Assembly: GCA_005239845.1 (NCBI GenBank)
Contig: SBBD01000163.1
Coordinates: forward strand, 1-10,499
Direction of reading: 5' to 3'
Length of the DNA: 10,499 nt
DNA from: an archaeon
GTDB taxonomy: Archaea > Micrarchaeota > Micrarchaeia > Norongarragalinales > SBBD01
The notes below the pieces were generated by a model, which saw only the letters and a program-made list of their open reading frames with translations, was not told the origin of the DNA and did not search any database. The number at the start of each line of letters is the position of its first letter. The first letter of the stretch is position 1. The translations under genes and the position numbers were made by a program. This document shows positions 256-10,397 of the stretch, in pieces.

Positions 256-825
256 TTACCCGACTCCGACAAGGCCGACCATCAAGGCGAACAGGAGGCC
301 GAACAACAACAACGCGATCACGGCCCACGCCGTGTCGTTCCATGCCTTGATTTTCTCGCCGTCCATGGGAAATACGGGAATCGTGTTGAAGGCGCCGAGG
401 AACGCGTTCACGTACGCGCCCCAATAGGCCACGTCCTTAAGCCCAGCATTCGAATAGCCGAGCGAGAGGAACGCAATCGCCAGGAAAAAATTCATTAAGG
501 GTCCTGCCGCCGCAATTTTCCCGTTGTGGTCTCTGGTAAGATGGGGGCCGTGGATCATGACGGCGCCAGGCGCGGCAAACACGAAGCGTCCTGCCGTAAA
601 GAACGCCATGCCCAGCGCCAAAAGCAGCCCGGGCGTCCACGCCCTATAGTACGCGACGGCGCCATAGCCTTGCGCCACGATCTTGTGCGCCAACTCGTGC
701 AAGATGAATCCCAGGCCCAGCGTCATAAAGACGAGCCAGAAGTTTCCGCTGAACAAGGAGAACGCGATGGAAATCGTGATGACGGAAACGGCTATGTGCA
801 GGATTTCCGTGAGGTCGGTGCGCAT
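256..825 (-). CDS. M50 (site-2 protease type) membrane metalloprotease
   Basis: This 189-residue integral membrane protein has both signatures of the S2P/M50 intramembrane zinc proteases. HELAH (residues 43-47) lies in a hydrophobic helix and supplies two His ligands and the catalytic Glu. N-x-x-P-x-x-P-x-D-G (147-156, NTIPVFPMDG) supplies the third ligand, Asp155. AAGPLMN (106-112) resembles the conserved Gly-Pro segment between them. Helices cover about 11-42, 66-88, 107-124 and 165-187. There is no PDZ or CBS domain, so this is a minimal core. The family cleaves transmembrane segments of substrates; the substrate here is unknown. ATG at 825 lies 4 nt after the stop of the 134-residue protein, so the gene is the last of the serS operon and probably translationally coupled. 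The catalytic residues look intact. Confidence 0.9.
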   Translation of the reverse strand: MRTDLTEILHIAVSVITISIAFSLFSGNFWLVFMTLGLGFILHELAHKIVAQGYGAVAYYRAWTPGLLLALGMAFFTAGRFVFAAPGAVMIHGPHLTRDHNGKIAAAGPLMNFFLAIAFLSLGYSNAGLKDVAYWGAYVNAFLGAFNTIPVFPMDGEKIKAWNDTAWAVIALLLFGLLFALMVGLVGVG

Positions 826-829
826 GCTT

Positions 830-1234
830 CTACACTTCGCTTTCCGTGAGCCGGATGCTGGCCGGAGTGAACGTGCCTGTATAGCCCGTGATGATGCCTT
901 CGCCTCTACGATTGTTGGCCAGCCTCACCCTGATTTTTTTCCCGAGCCTCCCGTCTTCGAGGGCCGTCACGAAATACGTGTCCATCACGTTCTGGATCAA
1001 GTCGCCGTTGGAAACGTAACGGCGCTGTACGGCCATGAGCACATCGCCTTGCCTTACGCCGCGGACGTGGGGCTGCAGGTAGCCAAGCACCATGGCCAGC
1101 CCCAAACTCAGGGCGAACAGTTTCCAGAACGAGTCGATGGGCGTCCCGGGCACCCCGACGATGGAGAAGGCGAAGCCCAGCAGGGAGAGTGCCAGGAGCG
1201 CAAAAAAGGACTTGAAGAGGAAACGCAGGTTCAT
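830..1234 (-). CDS. Hypothetical two-helix membrane protein, serS operon
   Basis: I do not recognise a family for this 134-residue protein. Two hydrophobic segments (about residues 6-27 and 36-52) are separated by a short Gly/Pro turn. A C-terminal part (about 55-134) is rich in Val, Gly, Arg and Thr and looks like a small beta domain, probably on the cytoplasmic side because of its many Arg/Lys. The frame stays open upstream to 1360, but that extension overlaps the 3' end of serS and is low-complexity and charged. The ATG at 1234, 25 nt after the serS stop and directly before the first hydrophobic segment, is therefore the better start. It sits between serS and the M50 protease (4-nt gap to the latter). 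A role with the protease, such as partner or substrate adaptor, is inferred from position only. Confidence 0.78.
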   Translation of the reverse strand: MNLRFLFKSFFALLALSLLGFAFSIVGVPGTPIDSFWKLFALSLGLAMVLGYLQPHVRGVRQGDVLMAVQRRYVSNGDLIQNVMDTYFVTALEDGRLGKKIRVRLANNRRGEGIITGYTGTFTPASIRLTESEV

Positions 1235-1259
1235 TTTATTGCAATCACCGGCATGGCTT

Positions 1260-2555
1260 TCATTTTTTATGTTTTCGGGGGCGGATTTCCGAGAACCCCG
1301 CGTATTCCTGCAGGGCTTGGGGGATGCGGACGCTTCCGTCCTCCTGCTGGTGGTTTTCAAGAATCGCTACGAGGGCCCTCGGGTTGGCAACGGCCGTGGA
1401 GTTCAAGGTGTGCACCCACTCCTTTTCCTCGAACTTTCCTTTCTTGCGGTACCGGATTCCTAAACGCGTGGCCTGGTAGCTCCCGCAGTCGCTGCAGCTC
1501 ACCACTTCGCGGAACGCGTTCTGGGCAGGCATCCACGCCTCGATATCGTACTTTTTGCGCGCCATGCTGCCCATTTCCGCCGTGCACATGCCGACGACGC
1601 GGTAAGGGATTTCCAACTGTTGAAACAACTGTTCCGCGTTCGAGAGGAGTTCTTCGTGCAATGCAGGCGCTTGTTTGGGCGTGCAGAACGCGAATTGTTC
1701 GACTTTCGAGAACTGGTGGACGCGGAAGATGCCTTTCGTGTCCCTGCCGTGCGCTCCCGCTTCTTTCCGGAAGCACGAGCTGGTTCCCGCGTACTTCAAG
1801 GGAAGGTTCTCCTCCTCAACGATTTCCTTGGCGTGCATGGCGGCCAAGGGGTGCTCGGAAGTGGCAATCAGGTACAAGTCTTCCCCCTCGATCTTGTACA
1901 TGACGTCCTCGAAATCCTTCAAGTCCGTCACTCCCTCGTAGGGTTCCCGGCGCATGAAATAAGGTGGGAGGACGGGCGTGAACCCTTTCGCAGACAGGAA
2001 GTCGAGGGCCATGCGCTGCAAGGCCAGGTCCAACAGCACGAGTTCGTTTTTCAGGAAGTAAAAGCGGGCACCCGCGATTTTTGCCGCGCGCTCGAGGTCG
2101 GCAATGCCCAGCGATTCAATCAAGTCGACGTGGTTCTTTGGCGGGAACGCAAAGGAAGGCCGTTTTCCCCACGTGCGAACGACCGTATTGTCTTTTTCCC
2201 CTACGCCTTCCGGAACATCTTCTGCAAGCAGGTTGGGAATGCGGAGAAGCAGGGCATGAATTTCTTGTTCGAGCGTAATTCTTCGTTCGTCCGCTTGCTT
2301 GATTTTCTCGGGGATGGCGCTTGCCTCCCTTAGTTTTTCTGCCGCATCTTTGCCTTCCTTCTTGAGCCGGTTGACTTCCCGGGAAAGCGCATTGCGCAAG
2401 GCCTTGAGGCGTTCCGCTTCTTCCTTCTGCTTCCTCCATTCCTTGTCCTTTTGAAGCAGCAGGTCGAATTGCCGGAGGGTTTCCGGGTTCTGGCGGCGTT
2501 CCAAGTTCGCCTTGACTTCCGGTGCGTGGGCTCTCACGAAACGCAAATCCAGCAT
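1260..2555 (-). CDS. serS: Seryl-tRNA synthetase
   Basis: Class II SerRS of 431 residues, normal length for the common (non-methanogenic) type; it charges tRNA-Ser with serine. The N-terminal arm (about 25-105) is an antiparallel coiled coil rich in Lys, Glu and Leu that grips the long variable arm of tRNA-Ser. The catalytic core shows the TSE motif (232-234), motif 2 with FRKEAGAHGRDTKG (262-275) and motif 3 with TLNSTAVANPRALVAILEN (383-401), whose Arg binds ATP. SCSDCGSYQATR (353-364) is the family's conserved segment before motif 3. The ATG at 2555 has a purine-rich GAGGGAGA stretch 5-12 nt upstream. It is the first gene of an operon running into the 134-residue membrane protein and the M50 protease, and is divergent from the Lrp gene. 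Confidence 0.97.
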   Translation of the reverse strand: MLDLRFVRAHAPEVKANLERRQNPETLRQFDLLLQKDKEWRKQKEEAERLKALRNALSREVNRLKKEGKDAAEKLREASAIPEKIKQADERRITLEQEIHALLLRIPNLLAEDVPEGVGEKDNTVVRTWGKRPSFAFPPKNHVDLIESLGIADLERAAKIAGARFYFLKNELVLLDLALQRMALDFLSAKGFTPVLPPYFMRREPYEGVTDLKDFEDVMYKIEGEDLYLIATSEHPLAAMHAKEIVEEENLPLKYAGTSSCFRKEAGAHGRDTKGIFRVHQFSKVEQFAFCTPKQAPALHEELLSNAEQLFQQLEIPYRVVGMCTAEMGSMARKKYDIEAWMPAQNAFREVVSCSDCGSYQATRLGIRYRKKGKFEEKEWVHTLNSTAVANPRALVAILENHQQEDGSVRIPQALQEYAGFSEIRPRKHKK

Positions 2556-2585
2556 CTGTTTCTCCCTCGCATGCAGTTAGGCAGG

Positions 2586-2620
2586 GCAACGTTTTTAACC
2601 CGTTTCCCGCTAATCGTTGC
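2586..2620. promoter_or_regulatory. Inverted repeat around the Lrp promoter, possible operator
   Basis: GCAACG at 2586-2591 is repeated as its reverse complement CGTTGC at 2615-2620, so the two arms bracket the TATA-like box and end at the Lrp start codon. Lrp/AsnC proteins commonly bind dyads at their own promoters, so autoregulation and control of serS are possible. Six-base arms 23 bp apart can arise by chance. Confidence 0.3.
2591..2600. promoter_or_regulatory. TATA-like box, shared divergent promoter
   Basis: GTTTTTAACC is the only strong A/T box in the serS/Lrp intergenic region. It is centred 26 nt upstream of the Lrp ATG (2621), the spacing expected if transcription starts at the ATG, giving a leaderless mRNA. 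Read on the other strand (GGTTAAAAAC) it is about 40 nt from the serS ATG, giving a leader of roughly 15 nt. Use in both directions is inferred. Confidence 0.5.
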
Positions 2621-3109
2621 ATGCCGTTACTTCAAGAGGGGACGAGCGCTCTCGAGGAAAAGTACGCCTGCGATTCCTTGGACGAACGCATCCTGAAAGC
2701 CTTGTCGGAGGACGCGCGCAGCTCGTTCCGCGTGATTGCCAAGGGTTTAAAGGTCTCCACCTCTACCGTGGTGCAGCGCGTCAAGCGCTTGGAACAGGCG
2801 GGCATCATCCGGGGCTATGCGGCCGTCTACGACTACTCGAAGCTGGGGTACGAGTTCGTGGGGCTGGTTGAGGTCACCATCAACAAGGGCGCGCTGCTCG
2901 CCGTGCAGAAAAAGATTTCACTGCTTCCAGGAGTGGTGGCGGTCTATGATGTTACGGGGCTGAGCGATTCCATGGTGCTCATTCGCACGAAGAACCGGAA
3001 CGAGTTCAGCAAGCTCGTCAAGACCATTCTCGCCATCGAGCAAGTGGAACGCAGTAACACGCACGTCATTTTGAACGTGGTAAAAGAGGAGTATCGCCAG
3101 TTCCTTTGA
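2621..3109 (+). CDS. Lrp/AsnC family transcription regulator
   Basis: A 162-residue protein with classic Lrp/AsnC architecture. The N-terminal winged helix-turn-helix (about 18-66) shows DSLDERILKALSEDARSSF, then the recognition region around KVSTSTVVQRVKRLEQAG and the wing IIRGYAA. The C-terminal RAM/ligand domain (about 77-160) contains PGVVAVYDVTGLSDSMVLI (103-121), with the Gly-rich turn that binds effectors at oligomer interfaces. The frame is open further upstream, but the ATG at 2621 fits the usual start just ahead of the HTH and has a TATA-like box 26 bp before it. No Shine-Dalgarno is seen, as expected for a leaderless gene. The effector is probably an amino acid, identity unknown. 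It is divergent from serS and 23 bp ahead of the surface-protein gene, with which it is probably co-transcribed. Confidence 0.93.
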   Translation: MPLLQEGTSALEEKYACDSLDERILKALSEDARSSFRVIAKGLKVSTSTVVQRVKRLEQAGIIRGYAAVYDYSKLGYEFVGLVEVTINKGALLAVQKKISLLPGVVAVYDVTGLSDSMVLIRTKNRNEFSKLVKTILAIEQVERSNTHVILNVVKEEYRQFL

Positions 3110-3132
3110 GACACCGTGAGAACCGAGTACCC

Positions 3133-5511
3133 ATGGCCTCTTTTTTCGCCCGCATTTTCCTGCTGTTTTTCCTATGCCTTACCTTGCCTGTTTTTGGGGC
3201 CACGATCACCAATTTGGATTATGTCCCTTCCGATTTGACGGTCGGAGTGTCGAACACGGTTACGGTGCACTTTCGTGCCGCTTCCGAAAACAACATCACG
3301 TTCGTCAAAGTCAAGTTTCCTGACGCGTTCGGCGTTTCGGGGGCTACGCTGGGTTCCATGATCGGCAATGATAGTGCGGCTTCGTTGAGCGTGGGAGGAC
3401 AGGAACTTAATGTGTCCCTGGCTGCTTCCCAACGCTTGCTCACGACGACGGATGTAACCATAGTATTCAAGAACGTGGTCAACCCGCATTCCGCGCAAGG
3501 ATATACCGTTCAAATTTGGACGGGAAACACTTCGTATCCTGTGTTTGACATGGGAACCACGCTTCCCCAAAGCTTTCTTGCGGCTCCCATGGTCAACGTA
3601 ACCCTGGCGAACCTGACGGCGCTTTCCCAAGTCATTGGCGGCCAGTTCCTCTTCAACGCTTCCGGCTGGGACGCTTTTGGGAACGCCAACGCCACGGGAG
3701 GGTTTTCGTGGGCTTCCACCAACACGAGCGTTGCATCCTATATCAGCGGAACGGGGAATTCCTCGGGCGTGTTTTCCGCGGCGGGGTATGGGACCGCGAC
3801 GATTACCGCGACTTCCCTCCGCGATCCTTCCAAGAGCGCTTCCCTGGCGGTGACGGTGGCTGCCGATTCGACTCCTCCCTCTCTTTCCTTGCTTTCCCCG
3901 TCGCTTGCATTTTACTCGAACGCATCCGTTTTCTTCCACATTTCTTCATCGGAAGCCCTCTCCTCGCTCTTGCTGAACCTTTCGAAAAACGGTTCCTCGG
4001 TTGCCTCCTATTCCCTCTCCCAGTTTTCCGTTCCTTCGAATTATGCCTACCAGCTTACCGTCCCCTTGAACGCTTCCGAAGGCAACTATTCCTACTTCCT
4101 GGAAGCCAAGGACGCCTCCAACAATTCGGCCAACCTTTCCGGAGGCTTTGCGGTGGACTTGAGTGCGCCGCTTGCAACCAACTGGTCCGTTTCGTTGGCT
4201 TCTCCTGACCAAATTACTTCTGAAAAAAACGCGTCCACGTATAGGGGCCACCACGTGTTCTTTTATGCGAATGTATCGGAACCGTATGCCAACCTCTCTG
4301 GTTTTACGGCCAACCTGAAATACGCGAACGGCTCGCTTGCTTACGCCCTTTCTTCCCCGGAACGCCTTTCTTCTGGCTTATTCAAGTGGACCTGGTTCAC
4401 GAACACTTCCTTCCTCCCCGCCCTTTATTCCGTTGACTTTCTGCTGACGGATATGGCCGGCAATGCCGCCACCTACGCCAATTCCTTGCAGGTGGAGTTG
4501 CAAAACGCTTCCGGCAACCTTACGCTGGCTCTTTCCAGCGATTCGGTTTGTTCCGGCGAGGCCGTGCAGGCTTATGGCTATGCCTACGTGAACGGAACGG
4601 GACTGGCGGGCGCTACCATTTTATTCGAGGGGGCCGCCGCCACTTTTTCGGGGTCGGCAGTGACTTCAAGCGACGGCTCGTATTCGTTGGTGAAAGCCGT
4701 TTCCGGAAATGGCTCTGCCACGGTTGCCGCCCGCATCCAATATACGGGTGTCCAGGCAAGCAAAACCTTTTCCTTCCTTTCCCCATGCATTGCCTCCACT
4801 CCCACTTCGACTCCGATTCCCACTTCCACGCCTGTCGCTACTTCTTCCCCCACTCCTACTCCTGTTCCCACTTACTCGGGCACTCCGACGCCTCCTCCGG
4901 AAGAGCACAACAAGTCGCTTTCAGAAAACGCGGACGTCTTCGCCTTCTTTTCCAGCGATTCCACCCGCTTTGTCTTGCAGTACCGGGGCGGGGAAGACGG
5001 TTTTGAAGGAGACGTCGCGTACGCGTTTCCTCTGGAGTACGGGGACTATCTTACCGGAAAGATTTCATTCGAGCCCGAGCCTTCCCTTGTAAAGGAAGGC
5101 AGCATCGTCGCCCTCTGGAGGGACGTCAAGCTCGGACACACGGAAGCCTTCACCGTCACGGTGGCCGTCTCGAAGCCTTTGCCTCCCGCCCTATTGGACC
5201 AATTTACGGAACCCATCCTGACACCCAAACAGCGCCGTTCTTCCCCGACGCCTCCACCAAGCCCCCTTCAGAACCAGTTGCAGGACATTGCACGGCGGGG
5301 AGGGTTCAACTTGGCGGTTCTCGTGCTCATTATCGTGGGAGTCTTTGGCGGCATCGCGTTTTACGGCAAGCTCATGCAGAAAAAAGTGAGTCCTGAAAAC
5401 GCGCAAAAGCTGAAGGAACCGCCTAAAACGCCGCCCGCTTCCTCCGCGCAAAACCCTGCCTCTTCTTGGAAGCCCTTGAATTTGCCTCCATGGAATGAGA
5501 AAAAGAAATAG
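3133..5511 (+). CDS. Large secreted, glycosylation-rich surface protein
   Basis: A 792-residue cell-surface protein. An N-terminal signal peptide (about 1-22, hydrophobic, ending VFGA) favours the ATG at 3133 over an earlier TTG. The ectodomain is Ser/Thr/Asn/Ala-rich and looks like a string of beta-sandwich (Ig-like) domains: an N-terminal domain (about 24-145), a Big-2-like domain near 150-245, two more repeats with an acidic or Asp-Ala-Ser 'NN' turn (about 248-345 and 350-455), and a region resembling carboxypeptidase-regulatory folds (about 460-555). I count about 28 N-x-S/T sequons, pointing to heavy N-glycosylation. A Pro/Thr/Ser linker (about 555-592) precedes a further beta domain, then a single transmembrane helix (725-744) and a 48-residue Lys/Pro-rich cytoplasmic tail. 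This is S-layer or adhesin-like architecture. Exact function is unknown and domain borders are approximate. Confidence 0.85.
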   Translation: MASFFARIFLLFFLCLTLPVFGATITNLDYVPSDLTVGVSNTVTVHFRAASENNITFVKVKFPDAFGVSGATLGSMIGNDSAASLSVGGQELNVSLAASQRLLTTTDVTIVFKNVVNPHSAQGYTVQIWTGNTSYPVFDMGTTLPQSFLAAPMVNVTLANLTALSQVIGGQFLFNASGWDAFGNANATGGFSWASTNTSVASYISGTGNSSGVFSAAGYGTATITATSLRDPSKSASLAVTVAADSTPPSLSLLSPSLAFYSNASVFFHISSSEALSSLLLNLSKNGSSVASYSLSQFSVPSNYAYQLTVPLNASEGNYSYFLEAKDASNNSANLSGGFAVDLSAPLATNWSVSLASPDQITSEKNASTYRGHHVFFYANVSEPYANLSGFTANLKYANGSLAYALSSPERLSSGLFKWTWFTNTSFLPALYSVDFLLTDMAGNAATYANSLQVELQNASGNLTLALSSDSVCSGEAVQAYGYAYVNGTGLAGATILFEGAAATFSGSAVTSSDGSYSLVKAVSGNGSATVAARIQYTGVQASKTFSFLSPCIASTPTSTPIPTSTPVATSSPTPTPVPTYSGTPTPPPEEHNKSLSENADVFAFFSSDSTRFVLQYRGGEDGFEGDVAYAFPLEYGDYLTGKISFEPEPSLVKEGSIVALWRDVKLGHTEAFTVTVAVSKPLPPALLDQFTEPILTPKQRRSSPTPPPSPLQNQLQDIARRGGFNLAVLVLIIVGVFGGIAFYGKLMQKKVSPENAQKLKEPPKTPPASSAQNPASSWKPLNLPPWNEKKK
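4798..4905 (+). repeat. Pro/Thr/Ser-rich low-complexity linker
   Basis: Inside the surface-protein gene, imperfect repeats of the codons for Ser-Thr-Pro-Thr (for example STPTSTPIPTSTPV) encode an extended, probably O-glycosylated stalk between the Ig-like region and the membrane-proximal domain. The DNA is correspondingly C/T-rich on this strand (cactcc, cctact). A second short Pro-rich stretch lies just before the transmembrane helix. Confidence 0.8.
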
Positions 5512-5546
5512 GGATTGCCTACGAATGACTTTCCCCCCAATAACAG

Positions 5547-5561
5547 AAAAAAAGCAAAAAA
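5547..5561 (-). terminator. Oligo-T terminator of proS
   Basis: Directly after the proS stop codon the transcript strand reads T6-GC-T7, the kind of oligo-T tract at which archaeal RNA polymerase terminates without needing a hairpin. It occupies the 50-bp gap between the convergent surface-protein and proS genes. No comparable T tract serves the plus-strand gene. Confidence 0.55.
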
Positions 5562-7019
5562 CTAGTATTGTCTTGCGATGTATGCTTGCTGGCTGCTTGT
5601 CTTGCCGCACATAATGCAGCAGCCGTTCCCTTGGCTTTCTTCTCCCACGCGCTTGCCTCTTACCTTGCCTCCCTTCGTGTATTCCTTGAGCTCGTCGGCA
5701 CACTTCTTGCCCTCCATTTCCAGCGAACAGAAGAACGCCTTCGCAATGCCTTTCTCCTCCAAAATCCTTAACACGCCTTCCTTGTCCCCTCCCTCCCTAA
5801 TACGGTCTAGCAGCCATTTACTGGAACGCTCCTGCAGCTCTTTCAGCAACACCGCGGCCTGCTCCTTAATTTTTTGCACTAGTTCGGCCGCTTTCACAGT
5901 GGTTTTTTCTCTCGTGGTTCTCCTTACCAACGTAACCGTTTTTTCCTTCTCTTCCCGAGCGCCCACTTCCGCGCGCAAGGGGACGCCCTTCAGCTCCCAA
6001 TAATTGTACTTGAAGCCCGGGTTCTTGTCCGAATCGTCTATCCTTACTTTGATGCCTGCTTCCTTCAATGCTTCGGCGACACTATTCGCATAAGCTAGTA
6101 TGTCCTTTCCGTCCTCTTTCCCTTTCATTATGGGGACAATGACCACTTGTATTGGGGCAACGTCGAACGGGAAAATGAGTCCCTTGGAATCCCCGTGCAC
6201 GGCGGCAACGGCGGCCATCATCCTCCAAATGCCAGGCCCGAAGCACGTCGAATAAGGAACTTGCCTCTTGCCTTCCGCATCCAAGAAGCTTACTTCGAAC
6301 GCTTTCGTGAAGTGTTGTCCCAAATAATGCGTGCTCCCGAACTGCAAGGCTTTCCCGTCCGGCAAGAGACAATCATAGGCGAACGTGGCTTCCGCTCCCG
6401 CGAACGTGTCCCATTTCGGCCTCTGGAACTGCAGGAACTCGATGCCCATGCTCTCAAACGCCACTTTCCTCATGATTTCGCCGTCCTTCCTCGTTTGTTC
6501 CCATGCTTCTTCGCTCGTGGCATAGACGTTGTGCGTCTCAATCCACAAGAATTCCACTCCGCGCAAAAAGGGGTTCGTCTCGCTCTCGTTCCGGTACACG
6601 GAACAGCTCTGGTACAGCTTGTAGGGCAAGTCCTTGAAGCTCGAGATCCATAACTGGTACATTTGGTAGAACGCGGTTTCTGATGTAGGGCGAAGGGCAA
6701 GCGGCCTCTTCAACTCCTCTTTTCCCGCTTTGGTTACCCACAACACTTCGGGGGCAAACCCTTCCACGTGCTCCTTTTCCTTCTCGAAATTCTCTTCAGG
6801 AATCACGGAAGGGAAAATGACGGGAAGGTGGCCGTCCTCTTCCAGCTCCTTCTCAAACAACGCGTAGATTTTCTTGAACGCCATGCTGCTCCACGGCCTA
6901 TTCACCACGAAGCCTTTCACATTATAGCGCACATCCGCCAGTTCGGCCGCATAAATCACGGTATTGTACCATTCCGAGAAGTGGGCGAACTTGTCCAAAT
7001 TGAATTCGCGTTGCTTCAT
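5562..7019 (-). CDS. proS: Prolyl-tRNA synthetase, archaeal/eukaryotic type
   Basis: ProRS of 485 residues, the length of the archaeal-type enzyme that lacks the bacterial editing insertion. It charges tRNA-Pro with proline. Visible are the class II TSE loop (LRPTSETAFY, about 109-118), motif 2 with YRNESETNPFLRGVEF (142-157), and motif 3 near FGPGIWRMMAA with its ATP-binding Arg. An anticodon-binding domain follows at about 284-385. The C-terminal domain carries four Cys at 431, 440, 468 and 471 (the last pair CIMC), the zinc site typical of this subclass, and ends in the characteristic Arg-Gln-Tyr. The ATG at 7019 is taken as the start; an in-frame GTG at 7025 would add Met-Asp. The region around this start is repeated 72 bp upstream (see leader entries). 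It stands alone, convergent with the surface-protein gene. Confidence 0.96.
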   Translation of the reverse strand: MKQREFNLDKFAHFSEWYNTVIYAAELADVRYNVKGFVVNRPWSSMAFKKIYALFEKELEEDGHLPVIFPSVIPEENFEKEKEHVEGFAPEVLWVTKAGKEELKRPLALRPTSETAFYQMYQLWISSFKDLPYKLYQSCSVYRNESETNPFLRGVEFLWIETHNVYATSEEAWEQTRKDGEIMRKVAFESMGIEFLQFQRPKWDTFAGAEATFAYDCLLPDGKALQFGSTHYLGQHFTKAFEVSFLDAEGKRQVPYSTCFGPGIWRMMAAVAAVHGDSKGLIFPFDVAPIQVVIVPIMKGKEDGKDILAYANSVAEALKEAGIKVRIDDSDKNPGFKYNYWELKGVPLRAEVGAREEKEKTVTLVRRTTREKTTVKAAELVQKIKEQAAVLLKELQERSSKWLLDRIREGGDKEGVLRILEEKGIAKAFFCSLEMEGKKCADELKEYTKGGKVRGKRVGEESQGNGCCIMCGKTSSQQAYIARQY

Positions 7020-7028
7020 GTCCACGCT

Positions 7029-7091
7029 TTATCGCCTTTTTCTGGTCGAGCTCTTTTGGTAAAAGAGGTCGTTGGATTCGCGTTGCTTCAT
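7029..7091 (-). CDS. Possible 20-codon leader ORF upstream of proS
   Basis: Starting at the duplicated ATG (7091), this frame reads Met-Lys-Gln-Arg-Glu like proS itself, then diverges (Ser-Asn-Asp-Leu-Phe-Tyr...) and stops at TAA 7029-7031, 9 nt before the proS ATG. It contains no proline codon, so a classical proline attenuator is unlikely. It might act as a decoy or regulatory upstream ORF, or be a silent by-product of the duplication. Nothing shows that it is translated, and no ribosome-binding site is seen. Confidence 0.25.
   Translation of the reverse strand: MKQRESNDLFYQKSSTRKRR
7051..7067. promoter_or_regulatory. Perfect hairpin in the proS leader
   Basis: CTCTTTT (7051-7057) and AAAAGAG (7061-7067) form a 7-bp perfect stem with a 3-nt loop in the segment between the two copies of the proS start. 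In RNA it would lie 32-48 nt upstream of the proS ATG. The stem is A/U-rich and weak, so a regulatory role is speculative; it may instead be a trace of a small insertion. Confidence 0.35.
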
Positions 7092-7162
7092 GTCCATAGG
7101 CTGTCGCACTCTATCGCATGCATTCCCTGTTGCGTTTTCGTTGTTTTTTTAGTTGTAGAAGC

Positions 7163-7170
7163 TTAATTAA
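7163..7170. promoter_or_regulatory. TATA box of the tRNA-Leu gene
   Basis: TTAATTAA is centred 26 nt upstream of the first base of tRNA-Leu, the standard archaeal TATA position, in a 50-bp A/T-rich island. It is palindromic, so it could also serve proS on the other strand, where it is about 75 nt ahead of the first ATG and about 147 nt ahead of the proS ATG. The rest of the 7026-7192 gap holds the proS leader repeat and A/T-rich DNA only. Confidence 0.65.
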
Positions 7171-7192
7171 CGTATTTTTTCTCAATTCCAAC

Positions 7193-7355
7193 GCAGGGGT
7201 GGCCGAGCCTGGTCAAAGGCGCAGGGCTTAGGACCCTGTCTCTCAGGAGTTCGAGGGTTCAAATGACCCCTCTAGGGGAAGTATCCCCTACGCGGGTCGC
7301 CTCTACCCCTCTTCGGAGGTTGAAGAAAGGCTGTCTGAAACTCCCTCCCCCTGCA
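7193..7355 (+). tRNA. tRNA-Leu(UAG) with intron in the T-loop
   Basis: A complete class II tRNA can be folded. Acceptor GCAGGGG (7193-7199) pairs with CCCCTGC (7348-7354). The D stem is GCC/GGC (7202-7204/7218-7220). The anticodon stem CAGGG/CCCTG (7222-7226/7234-7238) has anticodon TAG at 7229-7231. The long variable arm with CTC/GAG is as expected for Leu. The T stem GAGGG (7253-7257) pairs with CCCTC (7343-7347). The T-loop is interrupted after TTCAAA, and joining 7263 to 7342 restores a 7-nt TTCAAAT loop. The mature tRNA is 85 nt, discriminator A7355, with no encoded CCA. UAG reads CUN leucine codons. A TATA box lies at -26. All helices are perfect, so the gene looks functional provided splicing occurs. 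Confidence 0.92.
7264..7341 (+). other. Archaeal tRNA intron, position 59/60, BHB motif
   Basis: The 78-nt intron has a textbook bulge-helix-bulge. T stem GAGGG/CCCTC is followed by 3-nt bulge ACT (7340-7342), a central 4-bp helix TTCA (7258-7261) with TGAA (7336-7339), 3-nt bulge AAT (7262-7264), and then GAC/GTC (7265-7267/7333-7335). Cutting after the second base of each bulge restores a perfect T-loop. Internally it has a hairpin TAGGGG/CCCCTA (7273-7278/7285-7290) with loop AAGTAT, and a CCTC-TTCG-GAGG hairpin (7308-7319) with a UUCG tetraloop. GACCC (7265-7269) can also pair with GGGTC (7294-7298), which competes with the outer BHB helix. Most archaeal tRNA introns sit at 37/38; T-loop sites are the minority. 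Confidence 0.85.
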
Positions 7356-7596
7356 CTTGACCCCTCTGGGGGGAAGTATCCCCCCACACGGCTACGTAGG
7401 CTTTTCGCCTACTAGTGCCTAAACCCCCAAAAGGGTTTAGAGCATCGCCCACTCCCCCCTCCAATAATTTCTTTTGCGCGGAGCCACCGCACCTTTCTTC
7501 CGCTCAAAACCGCGAGGTTTTGGCAGCAGCCTGGACTTAGTCCAGAGCGGTCCAAAAGAAAGGGGCAAGGCGTTCTAAATCTCCCTCCTCTACTCT
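7264..7596 (+). repeat. Tandem, diverged duplication of tRNA intron plus 3' exon
   Basis: Unit 1 (7264-7357) is the intron, the tRNA 3' exon and CACT. Unit 2 (7358 to about 7596) begins at exactly the base equivalent to the first intron base: TGACCCCTCT occurs at 7264-7273 and 7358-7367, each followed by a G run, AAGTAT and a C run. The right ends also correspond: GAAGAAAGG, then TCTGAAA, CTCCCTCC, CTGCACTT in unit 1; AAAAGAAAGG, then TTCTAAAT, CTCCCTCC, TCTACTCTT in unit 2. Unit 2 is about 145 nt longer, the extra lying in the middle. Its 3' exon copy no longer pairs with the acceptor stem. Confidence 0.75.
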
Positions 7597-7604
7597 TTCG
7601 CTTA
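7358..7604 (+). ncRNA. Highly structured RNA related to the tRNA intron
   Basis: This gene-free stretch of about 245 bp is packed with perfect helices: TGGGGGG/CCCCCCA (7367-7373/7380-7386, loop AAGTAT); GTAGGC/GCCTAC (7396-7401/7407-7412); CTAAACCC/GGGTTTAG (7419-7426/7433-7440); GCGG/CCGC (7478-7481/7487-7490); and CCTTTCTT/AAGAAAGG (7492-7499/7556-7563). The last encloses CCGCT/AGCGG (7500-7504/7546-7550), which closes a three-way junction. The junction's arms are CAAAACC-GCGA-GGTTTTG (7505-7522, a GNRA loop) and CTGGAC-TTA-GTCCAG (7531-7545). A T6 run at 7605-7610 could terminate the transcript, which would start at the tRNA promoter. No coding frame on either strand looks real. I do not recognise RNase P, SRP, rRNA or C/D-box signatures. 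The strand is inferred from homology to the tRNA intron. Confidence 0.6.
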
Positions 7605-7877
7605 TTTTTTATGGTAGAGTTTCAGCCATGCGCTTTTGAAGTGGGGGAGCGTCAGCGTGGAAAGCATGAGCGCAACCGCGGGAACGATGGCGTTAAGCCA
7701 TGGCTCGGGAACGCGAATGGCTTGCATGTAGGCTCCCATAGCCAAATAGGTGAACAAGGTGAGGAGGATTCGCCGCGTATAGCTCGTTTCCCACGCCTTG
7801 TCGGCTTCCACGCGGCGGTTCCGTTCCTCTATTGCCGCAATTTCTTTTTCCAGTCGTTGAAGCGTAGCCATTTTCAT
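7602..7877 (-). CDS. Small conserved two-helix membrane protein
   Basis: A 91-residue protein. The N-terminus (about 5-30) is a charged amphipathic helix or short coiled coil ending NRRVEADKAWETSYTRR. Two hydrophobic helices follow (about 36-55 and 61-78), the second containing PWLNAIVPAVALMLSTLTLP, then a basic tail. From memory this pattern (N-R-V-E-x-D-K-A-W-E-T-S, then L-N-A-I-V-P and L-S-T-L-T-L-P) is a recurrent uncharacterised small protein family in DPANN archaea and CPR bacteria; I cannot name a function. Translation may start at ATG 7877 or at ATG 7871, the latter 6 nt after an AGGA. It lies 2 nt after the stop of a 43-codon ORF, suggesting a two-gene operon. Its 3' end abuts the structured RNA on the opposite strand. 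Confidence 0.85.
   Translation of the reverse strand: MKMATLQRLEKEIAAIEERNRRVEADKAWETSYTRRILLTLFTYLAMGAYMQAIRVPEPWLNAIVPAVALMLSTLTLPHFKSAWLKLYHKK
7605..7610 (+). terminator. T6 run, possible terminator of the tRNA/ncRNA unit
   Basis: Six T on the plus strand follow the last structured segment and would suit archaeal RNA polymerase termination. The run also encodes the Lys-Lys end of the minus-strand 91-residue gene, so it may simply be coding sequence. Confidence 0.3.
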
Positions 7878-7879
7878 TC

Positions 7880-8011
7880 CTACCAGTTTATGCAGGCCAT
7901 TTTATAATCATCGTTTGAGTGGCAGACGGTACGCTTGCAGCAGGTGGTTCCGGCTACGGGTTTCCATTCCCTGATAATCCGTGCGTCCATTCGCGCTTTG
8001 GGCACAGCCAT
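7880..8011 (-). CDS. Putative 43-residue Cys-rich small protein
   Basis: ATG at 8011 opens a 43-codon frame ending TAG 7880-7882, only 2 nt before the ATG of the 91-residue gene; such tight spacing favours a real coupled gene. The N-terminal half is basic (MAVPKARMDARIIREWKPV). The C-terminal half is TTCCKRTVCHSNDDYKMACI with Cys at 24, 25, 30 and 40 and His31, a plausible single metal site. A TATA-like CGCTTAATG lies about 40 nt upstream. The frame is open further upstream, but that part overlaps the start of the TerC-like gene on the other strand and is probably not translated. No family is recognised. It could also be chance, since the frame is short. Confidence 0.5.
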   Translation of the reverse strand: MAVPKARMDARIIREWKPVAGTTCCKRTVCHSNDDYKMACINW

Positions 8012-8068
8012 TTTAATCCTGTAAGCGTAATGGGAGGCTAGCCGGTTTGTCATTAAGCGTGGGTTTTC

Positions 8069-9001
8069 ATGTTTGACTTGGGAATTGCCTTGTTTACGGT
8101 ACTGGGCCTCGCGTTGTTCGAGGTCGTCATTGCCGTGGACAACGCGGTCGTGAACGCGCACGTGCTTTCCACCATGTCCGAGAAGGCCCGCCGCTGGTTC
8201 CTCTTGTGGGGCTTGCTAGTCGCCGTCTTCATCGTGAGGGGCTTGCTGCCATGGCTCATCGTCTTTGCCTTGAACCCTTCCCTCGGCTTTTTCGGCTCGC
8301 TGACGCTGGCATTCAGCGACGACCCTGCCGTCGCGCATTCCATCGAGCAATCGGAGTCCGTGCTGCTGGTGGCCGGAGGCGTGTTCCTCACCTTCCTTTT
8401 TTTCCACTGGCTGTTCATGCAGCCCAAGAACTACGGCCTGCAGGTGGAAAAAAGGTTCGAGCGCCACGGCGCATGGTTTTACGCCATCGTTTCCGTGCTG
8501 CTGCTGGTCATCGTGTGGCTTTCCCTCGAACGCCAGCCGCTCATGGCTTTGGGGGCCACCATCGGCTCCACCATGTTCTTCATCACGCACGGCTTCAAGG
8601 AGTACGCGGAAGAGAAAGAGCGGCGCATGACGGCGGCTGGAACGCACGTCAGCGACTGGAGCAAGATTTTCTACTTGGAGGTCATTGACGCCGCTTTTTC
8701 CGTGGACGCCGTGCTCGGCTCGTTCGCGTTCACGTTTTCCGTTCCCCTCATTTTGGTCGGCAACGGCATCGGCGCGATTGTAGTGAGACAGCTGACGGTC
8801 ACCAACATGAAGCTGGTGACGCAGTATAAGTACTTGAAGAACGGCGCCATGTACTCGATTTTCCTGCTGGGCCTCGTCATGCTTGCGGACAGTTTCGGCG
8901 CCGGCATCCCGAACTGGGTTTCCCCGTTGCTGACGTTCGGGGTCATGGGCTACTTTTTCTGGAAGTCGCGCGCCGAACTCGCACTGGTCCAGAAGGCCTA
9001 A
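8069..9001 (+). CDS. TerC superfamily membrane protein (DUF475 type)
   Basis: A 310-residue polytopic membrane protein with the TerC/DUF475 signature. The first half has FEVVIAVDNAVVNAHVL (17-33), with acidic and Asn residues in a helix (Glu18, Asp24, Asn25). The second half repeats the theme in YLEVIDAAFSVDAVLGSFAF (202-221; Glu204, Asp207, Asp213). The family is thought to move or sense metal ions (tellurite-resistance TerC, manganese exporters). The two acidic helices related by internal repeat would form the metal path. About eight or nine hydrophobic helices are seen. The central loop around 175-198 is highly charged (EEKERR) and likely cytoplasmic. There is no clear TATA box at -26; an ATTTTAATC at 8010-8018 could give a short leader. 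The other ter genes are absent here, so tellurite resistance should not be assumed; metal ion homeostasis is the safer call. Confidence 0.9.
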   Translation: MFDLGIALFTVLGLALFEVVIAVDNAVVNAHVLSTMSEKARRWFLLWGLLVAVFIVRGLLPWLIVFALNPSLGFFGSLTLAFSDDPAVAHSIEQSESVLLVAGGVFLTFLFFHWLFMQPKNYGLQVEKRFERHGAWFYAIVSVLLLVIVWLSLERQPLMALGATIGSTMFFITHGFKEYAEEKERRMTAAGTHVSDWSKIFYLEVIDAAFSVDAVLGSFAFTFSVPLILVGNGIGAIVVRQLTVTNMKLVTQYKYLKNGAMYSIFLLGLVMLADSFGAGIPNWVSPLLTFGVMGYFFWKSRAELALVQKA

Positions 9002-9025
9002 CGCCGGATTGTTGATTGCTGAAAA

Positions 9026-9724
9026 CTATTTTGCCAGCATTCCCGGCTTTTTTGCGAAGACGAAGATGGAGTCGTGCTTGTGCCGCTTGGCGTGGGGGTA
9101 GCCGTCCATCTCAAGGTCAGGATCCCAGCGCTCCATTTTCCTGGTTTCGAGGATTTCGAACCCTTTCAGCATCCTTTTCACTTCTTCCACGGAATGAAAG
9201 CCGTAATAGACTCCTCCTTCCATGAACGCGTTGTGTCCCACTTTCTCTCCTTTCCCGAAAGCAGGGTCGTCCGTGGAATGGAATTCGACGAGCAGGAAAC
9301 CTCCCGGCTTGAGTGAATCGAATAAGTTGCGCAGCACTTTGCCCGCGTCCTCCAAGTGCACCATGACGTAGTCGCAGATGACGGCATCAAACTCGTCCTT
9401 GTAGTTGAGTTCCCGCAAATCCCCCTGCACGGCCTCGGCATTCGGATACTCGCGCGAAACCCGGTGTGCCCTCCTTATTCCTTCCTCGGAACTATCTACT
9501 CCGACAACGTCAAAACCCTGTTCTGCAAACGCCAGGAGGTTCCTCCCGTCCCCGCAGCCGGCATCCAAGACTTTCTTGACGCCGTGTTTCTTCAGGTAGT
9601 CCGCTTTCTCAAGAAAGAAGCCGGTGGGCTCCTCGTTCCAGACGGAAAAACGCTGTCCCTTGTATTCGGGATACACGTTGTCCCAGCGCTGGGGATTCCT
9701 TCCCGTCATATAAATTGCGTTCAC
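9026..9724 (-). CDS. Class I SAM-dependent methyltransferase
   Basis: A 232-residue protein with a Rossmann-type methyltransferase core. Motif I VLDAGCGDGRN (52-62) is the Gly-rich SAM-binding loop. VVGVDSSEEGI (73-83) has Asp77 for the ribose hydroxyls. GDLREL (101-106) and DAVICDYVMVHLED (113-126) are motifs II and III, and LKPGGFLLVEFHS (138-150) is the post-I strand region. The tail carries a basic segment (HAKRHKHD) and no extra domain. The target cannot be told; it resembles small-molecule or TehB-like enzymes more than RNA methylases. GTG at 9724 is preferred because AAGGA lies 5 nt before it. ATG at 9709 is the alternative and would drop five residues. It follows the MsrQ-like gene by 12 nt, so the two are likely one operon. 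Confidence 0.9.
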   Translation of the reverse strand: MNAIYMTGRNPQRWDNVYPEYKGQRFSVWNEEPTGFFLEKADYLKKHGVKKVLDAGCGDGRNLLAFAEQGFDVVGVDSSEEGIRRAHRVSREYPNAEAVQGDLRELNYKDEFDAVICDYVMVHLEDAGKVLRNLFDSLKPGGFLLVEFHSTDDPAFGKGEKVGHNAFMEGGVYYGFHSVEEVKRMLKGFEILETRKMERWDPDLEMDGYPHAKRHKHDSIFVFAKKPGMLAK

Positions 9725-9736
9725 TTTTTTCCTTGT

Positions 9737-10345
9737 TTAGGATTCTTGGGTTGGAGTGGCTGGAGGCTTCCGCAGCTTCAAGGCCATCTTTACCATGATG
9801 AGCACGGCCGCCACTCCTATTACTGTGTATTTGAGGACCTCGTTCTTCATGTATAGCAGTCCAATATTGGATGCGTGGACAAGACCCAGAACCGCGGCCA
9901 GGTACACGAGAAGTTGCAGCCTTTTCCAATTCTTTTTCAGCGTCCGTACCGCAAAATCGTTCGAGGTGGCGGCCATGAGAGCGGTAATTAGGAGGGCGAC
10001 GGTTCCCAGCATCAAGAAGCCGAAGTTTTTGTTTTGAAAGTACTTGTCCGGATTCCACCCGAAAAAGAAGTGCCAGACAAGCCCGACGTGAATCGCAGCG
10101 AAAAAGAAAGTGAAGATGCCGATCCACCTCCTGTTGGCGTAAACAAAACGGGTGAAGTCATTCGGAAAATGTGAAAGCAGGAGGGGAATAGAAAGGATGA
10201 AAAGGAGGGACAGCAACGCCAGGAAGCCGAAACTGCTCACGTACGCCACCGTCCTCTGCTTTTCGGGAACGAGAACATTGGCCGCCAAGAAAACGAGCGC
10301 AATGAGTACAATGCCGACTACTTGCACTTTGGTTTTTCCTTCCAT
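9737..10345 (-). CDS. MsrQ/YedZ-like haem-binding membrane protein
   Basis: A 202-residue membrane protein with about six helices, matching the ferric-reductase-like transmembrane domain of MsrQ (YedZ), the quinol-to-MsrP electron donor used in repair of oxidised methionine. RRWIGIFTFFFAAIHVGLVW (72-91) has the haem-ligand His86. Near the end, WKRLQLLVYLAAVLGLVHAS (140-159) is nearly the same as the family's W-x-x-L-H-R-L-V-Y ... H segment and keeps His157. The middle His of the family, expected at 144, is Gln here. Start ATG 10345 has GAGGG 8 nt upstream; a longer GTG start at 10396 would overlap the promoter. No MsrP or other redox partner gene is in the window. It leads the operon with the methyltransferase. 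A different ferric-reductase-like cytochrome is the main alternative. Confidence 0.8.
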   Translation of the reverse strand: MEGKTKVQVVGIVLIALVFLAANVLVPEKQRTVAYVSSFGFLALLSLLFILSIPLLLSHFPNDFTRFVYANRRWIGIFTFFFAAIHVGLVWHFFFGWNPDKYFQNKNFGFLMLGTVALLITALMAATSNDFAVRTLKKNWKRLQLLVYLAAVLGLVHASNIGLLYMKNEVLKYTVIGVAAVLIMVKMALKLRKPPATPTQES

Positions 10346-10397
10346 TTTGCTTTCCCTCTTTTGTACTAAAATTGGTGCATTCTCTATCCAAAACACC

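Follow-up and report, generated by a model that had tools for sequence, protein, structure and literature searches.

Likely nested miniature mobile elements directly downstream of a tRNA-Leu(UAG) gene in a Micrarchaeota genome

We analysed a 10,499-nt stretch of DNA (the window; positions 1 to 10,499 of contig SBBD01000163.1, assembly GCA_005239845.1) from a Norongarragalinales archaeon of the phylum Micrarchaeota, in which a preliminary description had singled out 7387-7570 as a stable non-coding RNA (ncRNA) or a large structured intron. This region is a nest of dispersed miniature elements directly 3' of a tRNA-Leu(UAG) gene and not one RNA gene. What had been called unit 2 is a composite of a long form of an element A, split by a module D1, followed by an element C with a module D2 in its loop, with the tRNA 3' end on one side and a decayed version of that end on the other (Table 1). 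Very probably, A-long(D1) and C(D2) are mobile elements of miniature size and without coding content, forming a nested pair that adjoins the tRNA gene. A, C and a nearby element B share a common plan, with pairing between a purine arm (R) and a pyrimidine arm (Y1) and a third tract (Y3) that matches R in parallel; a single strand could thus adopt a hairpin whose stem has three strands. Below, G000 is the window's own genome, G002 belongs to the same family, and G001 belongs to that family and a different genus.

All complementary stretches named in the preliminary description were found in the sequence. CCTTTCTT at 7492-7499 is complementary to AAGAAAGG at 7556-7563 and CCGCT at 7500-7504 to AGCGG at 7546-7550, with a one-sided offset TCCAA at 7551-7555; the GCGA-loop arm is CAAAACC/GGTTTTG and the TTA-loop arm CTGGAC/GTCCAG. 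The claim that structure of this density exceeds chance was borne out by an RNA fold of -71.3 kcal/mol for 7387-7570 against a shuffled mean of -51.41 (z -4.63; 0/200 shuffles as stable), and by the same control on the longer stretch 7358-7604 (z -4.25; 1/200 as stable). Folded as DNA, the opposite strand was equally extreme (z -6.27, 0/200), so that stability alone is no pointer to RNA. The proposed 13-bp stem survived in part: CCGCT/AGCGG is present in the best folds of 7387-7570, 7358-7604 and 7466-7571, but CCTTTCTT/AAGAAAGG is missing from the best folds of the first two, in which the purine arm pairs with an upstream tract at ~7469-7475 rather than with CCTTTCTT and the proposed stem is worse by 1.4 and 2.7 kcal/mol, respectively. 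When element C is folded alone (7466-7571), the best fold is that very stem. It is not one offset helix, however, but C's own hairpin joined to the closing helix of the D module inside C's loop, and the supposed three-way junction is the seam where C meets D. An uninterrupted C reads GTTTTCTTTGGCGCGGNGCCANCGCACCTTTCTT-loop-AAGAAAGGGGCAAGGC.

A single ncRNA gene or a single large structured intron was rejected since the component pieces turn up separately elsewhere: A without D at many loci, C without D in 9 aligned copies, and D in other A elements. A loose D finder gave 19 matches, nine of which were judged by eye to be one module, all in G000 (two each in the window and L023, and one each in L018, L027, L028, L149 and L151); the rest were doubtful, chance, a reverse-strand duplicate or C-type hairpins. 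At another G000 locus, L010 (G000:C189), A and then C, without D, stand 3' of a second tRNA-Leu and are followed by a copy of that tRNA's 3' end, with a significant flank repeat. C-like elements were also seen nested in, or in tandem with, other C-like elements (L070/L094 and L064/L078), with a shorter form TTTCTTTCGCGGCGCCATCGCCTTTCTTTT.

What stands of the preliminary description is a strongly structured, recurrent region whose parts covary and are tied to tRNAs, and which matches no known RNA. No Rfam family reached its gathering score in the window, RNase P, signal recognition particle (SRP) and group I intron models included, and group I intron, SRP and RNase P RNAs were rejected on this basis; up to E 10 the window gave one sub-threshold tRNA (24.4 bits vs a cut-off of 29) and seven matches taken as chance. 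The elements are apparently undescribed, as we found no literature description of such elements in Micrarchaeota and nothing combining triplex repeats with transposing tRNA introns. An assembly artefact was rejected since several assemblies, compared as assemblies and not as reads, hold the same elements.

A and C are widely dispersed. A blastn search with 7150-7650 gave 35 matches in G000 at E <= 1, the window included, the weakest of which are possibly chance or plain tRNA. Covariance model (CM) R1, built for A, found 64 matches in 8 of 29 genomes of the order, with 24 in G000 and 28 in G002. Model R2, for C, had matches in 42 of 196 genomes of a phylum sample, an upper estimate because R2 is rich in simple sequence and weak matches may be convergent purine-pyrimidine hairpins. 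R2 matches in several more distant families resemble TTTCTTTGGGGGTGAAACCCTCAGCCCCTTTCTTTT-loop-AAAAGAAAGGGGATATGGG and, by eye, frequently lie within tRNA genes. A strict 18-letter C core with <=2 mismatches occurred in 10/60 genomes, in four of which (G005, G016, G017, G038) no C surrounds the core. Scanning genome contigs for a 23-letter C pattern (19 fixed bases) returned 17 stretches, nine of them in records of Candidatus Micrarchaeota or uncultured archaeon LFW-144_1; the remaining 8 are bacterial and were taken as chance, uninspected. Viral contigs held 0 exact matches to the patterns of C, A or the C-like form from other families. Near-identical C copies stand in unrelated contexts across genera and families. 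One locus, L143 (G002:C1:9673-9820), has two A elements close to each other with a near-same stretch, AAAATAAGCGAGGAGTGAG, repeated alongside and tRNA-Cys adjoining on the other strand, and looks as if it had been hit repeatedly.

Some copies are bordered by direct repeats. For A, we took the best direct repeat between 70 nt on the left and 150 nt on the right and compared it with 1238 mismatched flank pairs, whose maximum of 140 we ascribe to pairs of neighbouring copies; such pairs raise the threshold. Repeats of 21-68 nt exceeded the 99th percentile in 21 of 57 copies, and 23 exceeded the 95th, always with 0-5 nt between the end of the left repeat and the A match. The clearest were in L152 (58 nt, 93%), L130 (48 nt, 96%), L136 (59 nt, 85%) and L021 (21 nt, 100%). 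These counts derive from 58 of the 64 A matches (G013:C15, G019:C18, G010:C1, G000:C21, G023:C55 and G027:C71 were left out of the list), 57 of which were analysed, G000:C165 lying outside the fetched stretches. For C, 43 of 73 matches were used, omitting partial reverse-strand matches, duplicates and some second copies, and 5 of the 43 had repeats above the 99th percentile of 1806 pairs, beginning 0-3 nt after the C 3' end. To judge from these alignments, A and C seem to have one sharp edge, at the R side, and one loose edge past the third tract.

The syntenic locus of G001 offers a comparison by eye: the order of prolyl-tRNA synthetase (ProRS) gene start and tRNA-Leu is kept, there is no B and no 25-bp repeat, and the T-arm of the tRNA is unbroken. 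Since the window's insertions are missing from G001, the three were gained in the G000 lineage unless, as is less likely, G001 has lost them. Behind the tRNA-Leu of G001 (L032, G001:C7), B-type hairpins form an insertion of a different make-up, after which the 3' end of that tRNA is repeated; two lineages thus seem to have independently received insertions at the same tRNA-Leu end. Separately, the repeat around B in the window (7000-7096) duplicates the first codons of the ProRS gene, and G001 lacks B.

Conservation of the stems was assessed in 60 distinct A rows fitted to the model, in which 96.3% of 621 stem cells were paired; as the alignment was fitted to the structure it is biased towards pairing, and slid controls drop to 48-67% paired. 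Ten of 11 pairs had changed on both sides (97 cells vs 30.4 in shuffles, 0/500), and the covariation score was 0.375 vs 0.170 shuffled (0/500). The cells comprised 593 Watson-Crick, 5 G.T, 15 A.C and 8 other combinations, and since G.U does not outnumber A.C, selection seems to operate at the DNA level or equally on the two strands, a pattern more in keeping with a DNA structure than with a conserved RNA.

The third tract was scorable in 47 A copies (3 had no stem and 7 no anchor). The tail after P1, one of the two A stems in Table 1, changes along with the stems and matches R in parallel (for example, R GGGGAG with tail CCCCTC, or R GGAGGG with tail CCTCCC): the parallel match was better in 19 copies and the antiparallel in 2, with 26 ties. 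The mean parallel match was 0.883 vs 0.796 for permuted tails, and 0/2000 permutations reached 0.883. Relatedness of the copies should not bias the sense of the 19-to-2 comparison, though related copies are still non-independent. Among 76 purine-arm hairpins of the B/C kind, the 60 nt upstream matched better in parallel in 36 and antiparallel in 12 (28 ties), and a downstream control was even (20 to 18, 38 ties). We know of no copying process that yields mirror repeats, so the parallel match suggests selection for a putative triple helix (Y3.R-Y1). Compared with intrastrand triplex-forming (ITxF) motifs, the elements may have three triad-compatible tracts, as the third is parallel in A by 19 to 2 with 26 ties and less clearly so in B/C, with mismatches in many copies and triads not scored singly; the loops differ, the second loop of A and the linker of B/C spanning ~7-20 nt instead of the 1-6 nt of both ITxF loops. 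As an asymmetric variant, L063 and L073 contain purine-first hairpins (arm AGAAGGAGAAAC) in tRNA introns, with a third tract TCTTCCTTTTG or TCTTCCTTTTCG that matches in parallel by eye.

Unit 1 of the preliminary description is the tRNA-Leu(UAG) gene itself, broken in the T-loop by a predicted intron. In the minimum-free-energy (MFE) structure of 7193-7358, a bulge-helix-bulge (BHB) is predicted with outer helix GAGGG:CCCTC, four central base pairs TTCA:TGAA, and bulges AAT and ACT. The archaeal BHB is cut after the second base in each bulge. At 7264-7341 the predicted structure has the features of an archaeal BHB tRNA intron (two 3-nt bulges, 4 bp between them, helices on either side, a standard tRNA restored), and its excision would restore a T-loop TTCAAAT and a standard T-arm by both fold and pattern scan. 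The predicted intron has a further copy of A (7265-7310) as its core, and probably arose by insertion of A. ARAGORN, which copes with anticodon-loop introns and not with T-loop ones, reported 0 tRNAs in the window; the inserted elements probably account for ARAGORN and Rfam missing this tRNA at their thresholds.

The association with tRNA genes extends to other loci. A scan for T-loop introns gave 64 raw candidates, of which 13 were kept by hand for having a sound T-loop and at least 6 of the 7 acceptor pairs (window, L007, L030, L031, L050, L055, L073, L075, L120, L171, L177, L187 and L194); the others look like chance. Hairpins of A, B or C type were recognised by eye in 11 of the 13, with none in L055 and an ambiguous case in L031; this proportion is no rate because the loci were picked by tRNA or element similarity. 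L120, in G002, is a second T-loop intron filled by A. ARAGORN with introns allowed placed a tRNA <=150 nt from 15 of the 57 A copies; it was chosen because Rfam at gathering gave 0 matches in 20 G002 loci and 6 tRNA matches in 20 G000 loci. A tRNA-arm regular expression (14/57 vs ~7% expected) was too crude and was not used as evidence. In L185 (G039), two purine-pyrimidine hairpin elements seemingly interrupt a single tRNA, in its T-loop and close to its anticodon loop.

We can envisage that a folded element is recognised as single-stranded or extruded DNA by some enzyme, which would cut the two target strands far apart, gap filling then leaving long repeats. Recognition of a folded strand, wide staggered cuts and gap filling would fit both the sharp and loose edges and the length of the repeats. 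By rebuilding the end of a disrupted tRNA or protein gene, a long repeat would let the insertion spare that gene; for a tRNA of ~75 nt, a 20-70 bp repeat would restore the gene if the insertion fell near an end. Insertion in a tRNA loop would be tolerated if the transcript forms a BHB that the tRNA splicing endonuclease can remove. We tentatively suggest, as a serious possibility that falls short of a probable one, a new class of transposable element: non-coding hairpins with a three-stranded stem that move as structured DNA, make gene-sparing target duplications of ~20-70 bp, nest in one another and become BHB introns in tRNA loops. If true, these elements would be the archaeal equivalent of introners, supplying tRNA introns throughout Micrarchaeota, and a yet unrecognised enzyme would move them.

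Several results weigh against mobility of this kind or against the triplex. No flank repeat exceeded the 99th percentile in 36/57 A and 38/43 C copies, and that of the A copy in the T-loop is not significant (520/2714 random stretches were equally good). Most of the 21 significant repeats are diverged (72-93% identity) while A is conserved, which is unexpected for a purely neutral insertion. The recurrence of A+C at L010 means that the pair may have moved as one unit or be a product of duplication. The antiparallel match in A likewise exceeds permuted tails (0/300), so that relatedness of the copies inflates the permutation test. The 60 B/C-kind hairpins with an asymmetric arm show a weaker preference than A (parallel 25, antiparallel 11, ties 24), and the purine arm of C is able to pair antiparallel with the third tract, making two-state pairing an alternative to a triplex there. 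The G.U count stands without a matched RNA control. Among candidate enzymes in the 29 genomes of the order, reverse transcriptase (PF00078) was found in none, giving no sign of a retroelement of the short interspersed (SINE-like) type; Cas1 (PF01867), expected for casposon-type insertion, was found in four, including G000 and G001, and not in G002, which has the most A copies; Y1 transposase (PF01797), expected for REP sequences or IS200-605 derivatives, in seven, with one in G000 and none in G001 or G002; and tyrosine recombinase in G000, G001 and G002 and not in the C carriers G006, G021 and G028. None of these four enzymes was found to track the elements. These genomes are incomplete, so enzyme absences are weak evidence.

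Mobile DNA elements were preferred over four other explanations. The least unlikely of these, though still unlikely, is that A, B and C are RNA-level tRNA intron cores that transpose between tRNA genes through the splicing system, as in Thermoproteales. The 11 of 13 hand-accepted T-loop introns with such hairpins would be explained, as would C ending near the 3' splice site in L063 and L071. However, ARAGORN, which does not detect T-loop introns, reports no tRNA in the 150 nt around 42 of the 57 A copies, and tRNA-distant copies with target repeats include L019, L022, L024, L130, L136 and L152; C can also point either way relative to the tRNA (L011 and L013 vs L071, L073 and L075), which is unexpected of an RNA-level core. 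We also doubt that the elements are immobile triplex-forming repeats that break replication, with slippage or repair at the triplex having produced the flank repeats as tandem duplications. Genome instability has been proposed for bacterial triplex motifs, whose architecture the elements resemble (both from the parts of PMC4666352 used here), and no transposase was found to track them, but slippage needs the element to be present beforehand and the G001 locus is without these insertions. Nor would it explain why nearly identical C copies turn up in different genera and families with unrelated surroundings.

A stable functional ncRNA of ~200 nt, transcribed with the tRNA and then trimmed, would agree with the very stable fold, the covariation in the A part, the orientation shared with the tRNA and the second A-then-C arrangement 3' of a tRNA-Leu at L010. 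We nevertheless regard it as very unlikely, because the combination with both D modules was found only here among the loci read, while its parts occur by themselves and in other settings, the syntenic G001 locus lacks A+C, the opposite strand folds equally extremely as DNA, and G.U is not enriched over A.C. Least credible of all, and highly improbable, is that these are remnants of integrase-type elements, which target tRNA 3' ends and generate a partial copy of the tRNA: such copies do follow several tRNA 3' ends (window, L010, L032) and G000, G001 and G002 have tyrosine recombinase matches, yet in L028 and L145 the repeat is at the tRNA 5' part, elements also occur away from tRNAs with unrelated repeat sequences, and the recombinase was not found in the (incomplete) C-carrying genomes.

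One element family here brings together two open questions, how archaeal tRNA introns originate and what triplex-forming repeats do in prokaryotes: its repeats have a triplex-like architecture, lie inside predicted tRNA introns, and form insertions for which a related genome gives a comparison. As the elements are small and have clear limits, mobility, triplex formation and splicing are each testable. Bacterial intrastrand triplex motifs include those named PIT and BoxC. Another, TM-ECO, is described in the parts of its report drawn on here as a 37-nt purine-motif sequence with loops of 3-6 and 3 nt that is always intergenic in E. coli MG1655 and for which the authors found no mobile-element link (Holder et al. 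2015, PMC4666352). As far as that account goes, both are short, dispersed, multicopy repeats of unknown function with two stem arms and a third tract that could make an intrastrand triplex, whereas the linker here is ~7-20 nt, including the P1 strand (A) or a small hairpin (C), and copies can carry 21-68 nt flank repeats and sit in or beside tRNA genes.

Miniature inverted-repeat transposable elements (MITEs) and repetitive extragenic palindromic (REP) sequences are small, non-coding, dispersed, hairpin-forming and nested. Introners, in eukaryotes, are a mobile element family that creates introns. The elements here share all of these properties of MITEs and REP sequences (sizes also in the parts of PMC4666352 used). 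Unlike in a classical MITE, terminal inverted repeats were not seen by eye, P1 and P2 being internal and the far end being the third tract, and the 21 significant target duplications measure 21-68 nt rather than a short fixed length; unlike for MITEs and REP sequences, no matching transposase was found in the 29 incomplete genomes. The likeness to introners, which are mentioned in the sections of PMC11782384 we draw on along with direct repeats near introns, lies in an intron-making mobile family, and the difference in splicing by a predicted tRNA BHB instead of the spliceosome. In Thermoproteales, tRNA introns of one family occur in many tRNAs and intron gain by transposition has been suggested (Fujishima et al. 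2010, as cited in PMC4033280 and PMC10714607); here, too, archaeal tRNA introns come from one sequence family, but the elements also occur away from tRNAs and with target repeats there, can face either way, are nested in one another, and belong to another phylum. The tRNA gene disruption in Caldiarchaeum by a 1.8 kb mobile element with a predicted recombinase, as partly drawn on here (Sugahara et al. 2012, PMC3293823), likewise links tRNA intron gain and tRNA fragments to mobile-element integration, though by an element unlike these non-coding ones of ~45-105 bp. The group I introns reported in Micrarchaeota rRNA genes are, from the part of PMC6125680 used, of a different kind.

Table 1. Features of the window around tRNA-Leu(UAG), with the evidence for each
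Feature	Position	Strand	Evidence
Left 25-bp direct repeat of B, at ProRS gene start	7000..7024	+	24/25 identical; 0/2726 random window stretches as good
Element B (CTTTTTCTGG - TCGAG - CTCTTTT/AAAAGAG), hairpin on the same plan	7028..7071	+	sequence; same kind in L026
Right 25-bp direct repeat of B	7072..7096	+	alignment with left copy
tRNA-Leu(UAG) 5' exon, up to T-loop TTCAAA	7193..7263	+	cloverleaf by eye; MFE fold; G001 orthologue
Predicted 78-nt T-loop (59/60) intron	7264..7341	+	MFE structure; pattern scan; syntenic G001 tRNA without intron
Element A copy 1, within the intron: P1 GACCC/GGGTC, P2 TAGGGG/CCCCTA, third tract CCCCT	7265..7310	+	CM R1 64 bits; family covariation
Left direct repeat of insertion 2 (TCTGAAACTCCCTCCCCCTGCACTT)	7334..7358	+	local alignment score 23; 0/2688 random window stretches as good
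tRNA-Leu 3' exon (TCCCTC CCCCTGC A)	7342..7355	+	sequence and MFE fold
Element A-long, copy 2: GACCC..., P2 GGGGGG/CCCCCC, third tract CCCCCC	7359..7461	+	CM R1 30 bits over 7362-7391; form as in L018, L027, L028, L149, L151
Module D1, two hairpins, splits P1 of A copy 2	7392..7444	+	equal position within A in L018, L023 (second D), L027, L028, L149, L151
Element C: tract Y3 TTTCTTTTG - GCGCGGAGCCACCGCA - Y1 CCTTTCTT / R AAGAAAGG - tail GGCAAGGC	7466..7571	+	CM R2 58.7 bits; pattern in other Micrarchaeota
Module D2 in C's loop: CCGCT / GCGA-loop hairpin / TTA-loop hairpin / AGCGG, then TCCAA 7551-7555	7500..7550	+	compared with uninterrupted C copies and D copies
Right, decayed tRNA 3' end copy (TCTAAATCTCCCTCCTCTACTCTT)	7574..7597	+	local alignment to left repeat

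From their translations, we take the genes at 256-10396 of the window to encode an M50-type protease, seryl-tRNA synthetase (SerRS), an Lrp-type regulator, a surface protein, ProRS, a TerC-like membrane protein and a methyltransferase.
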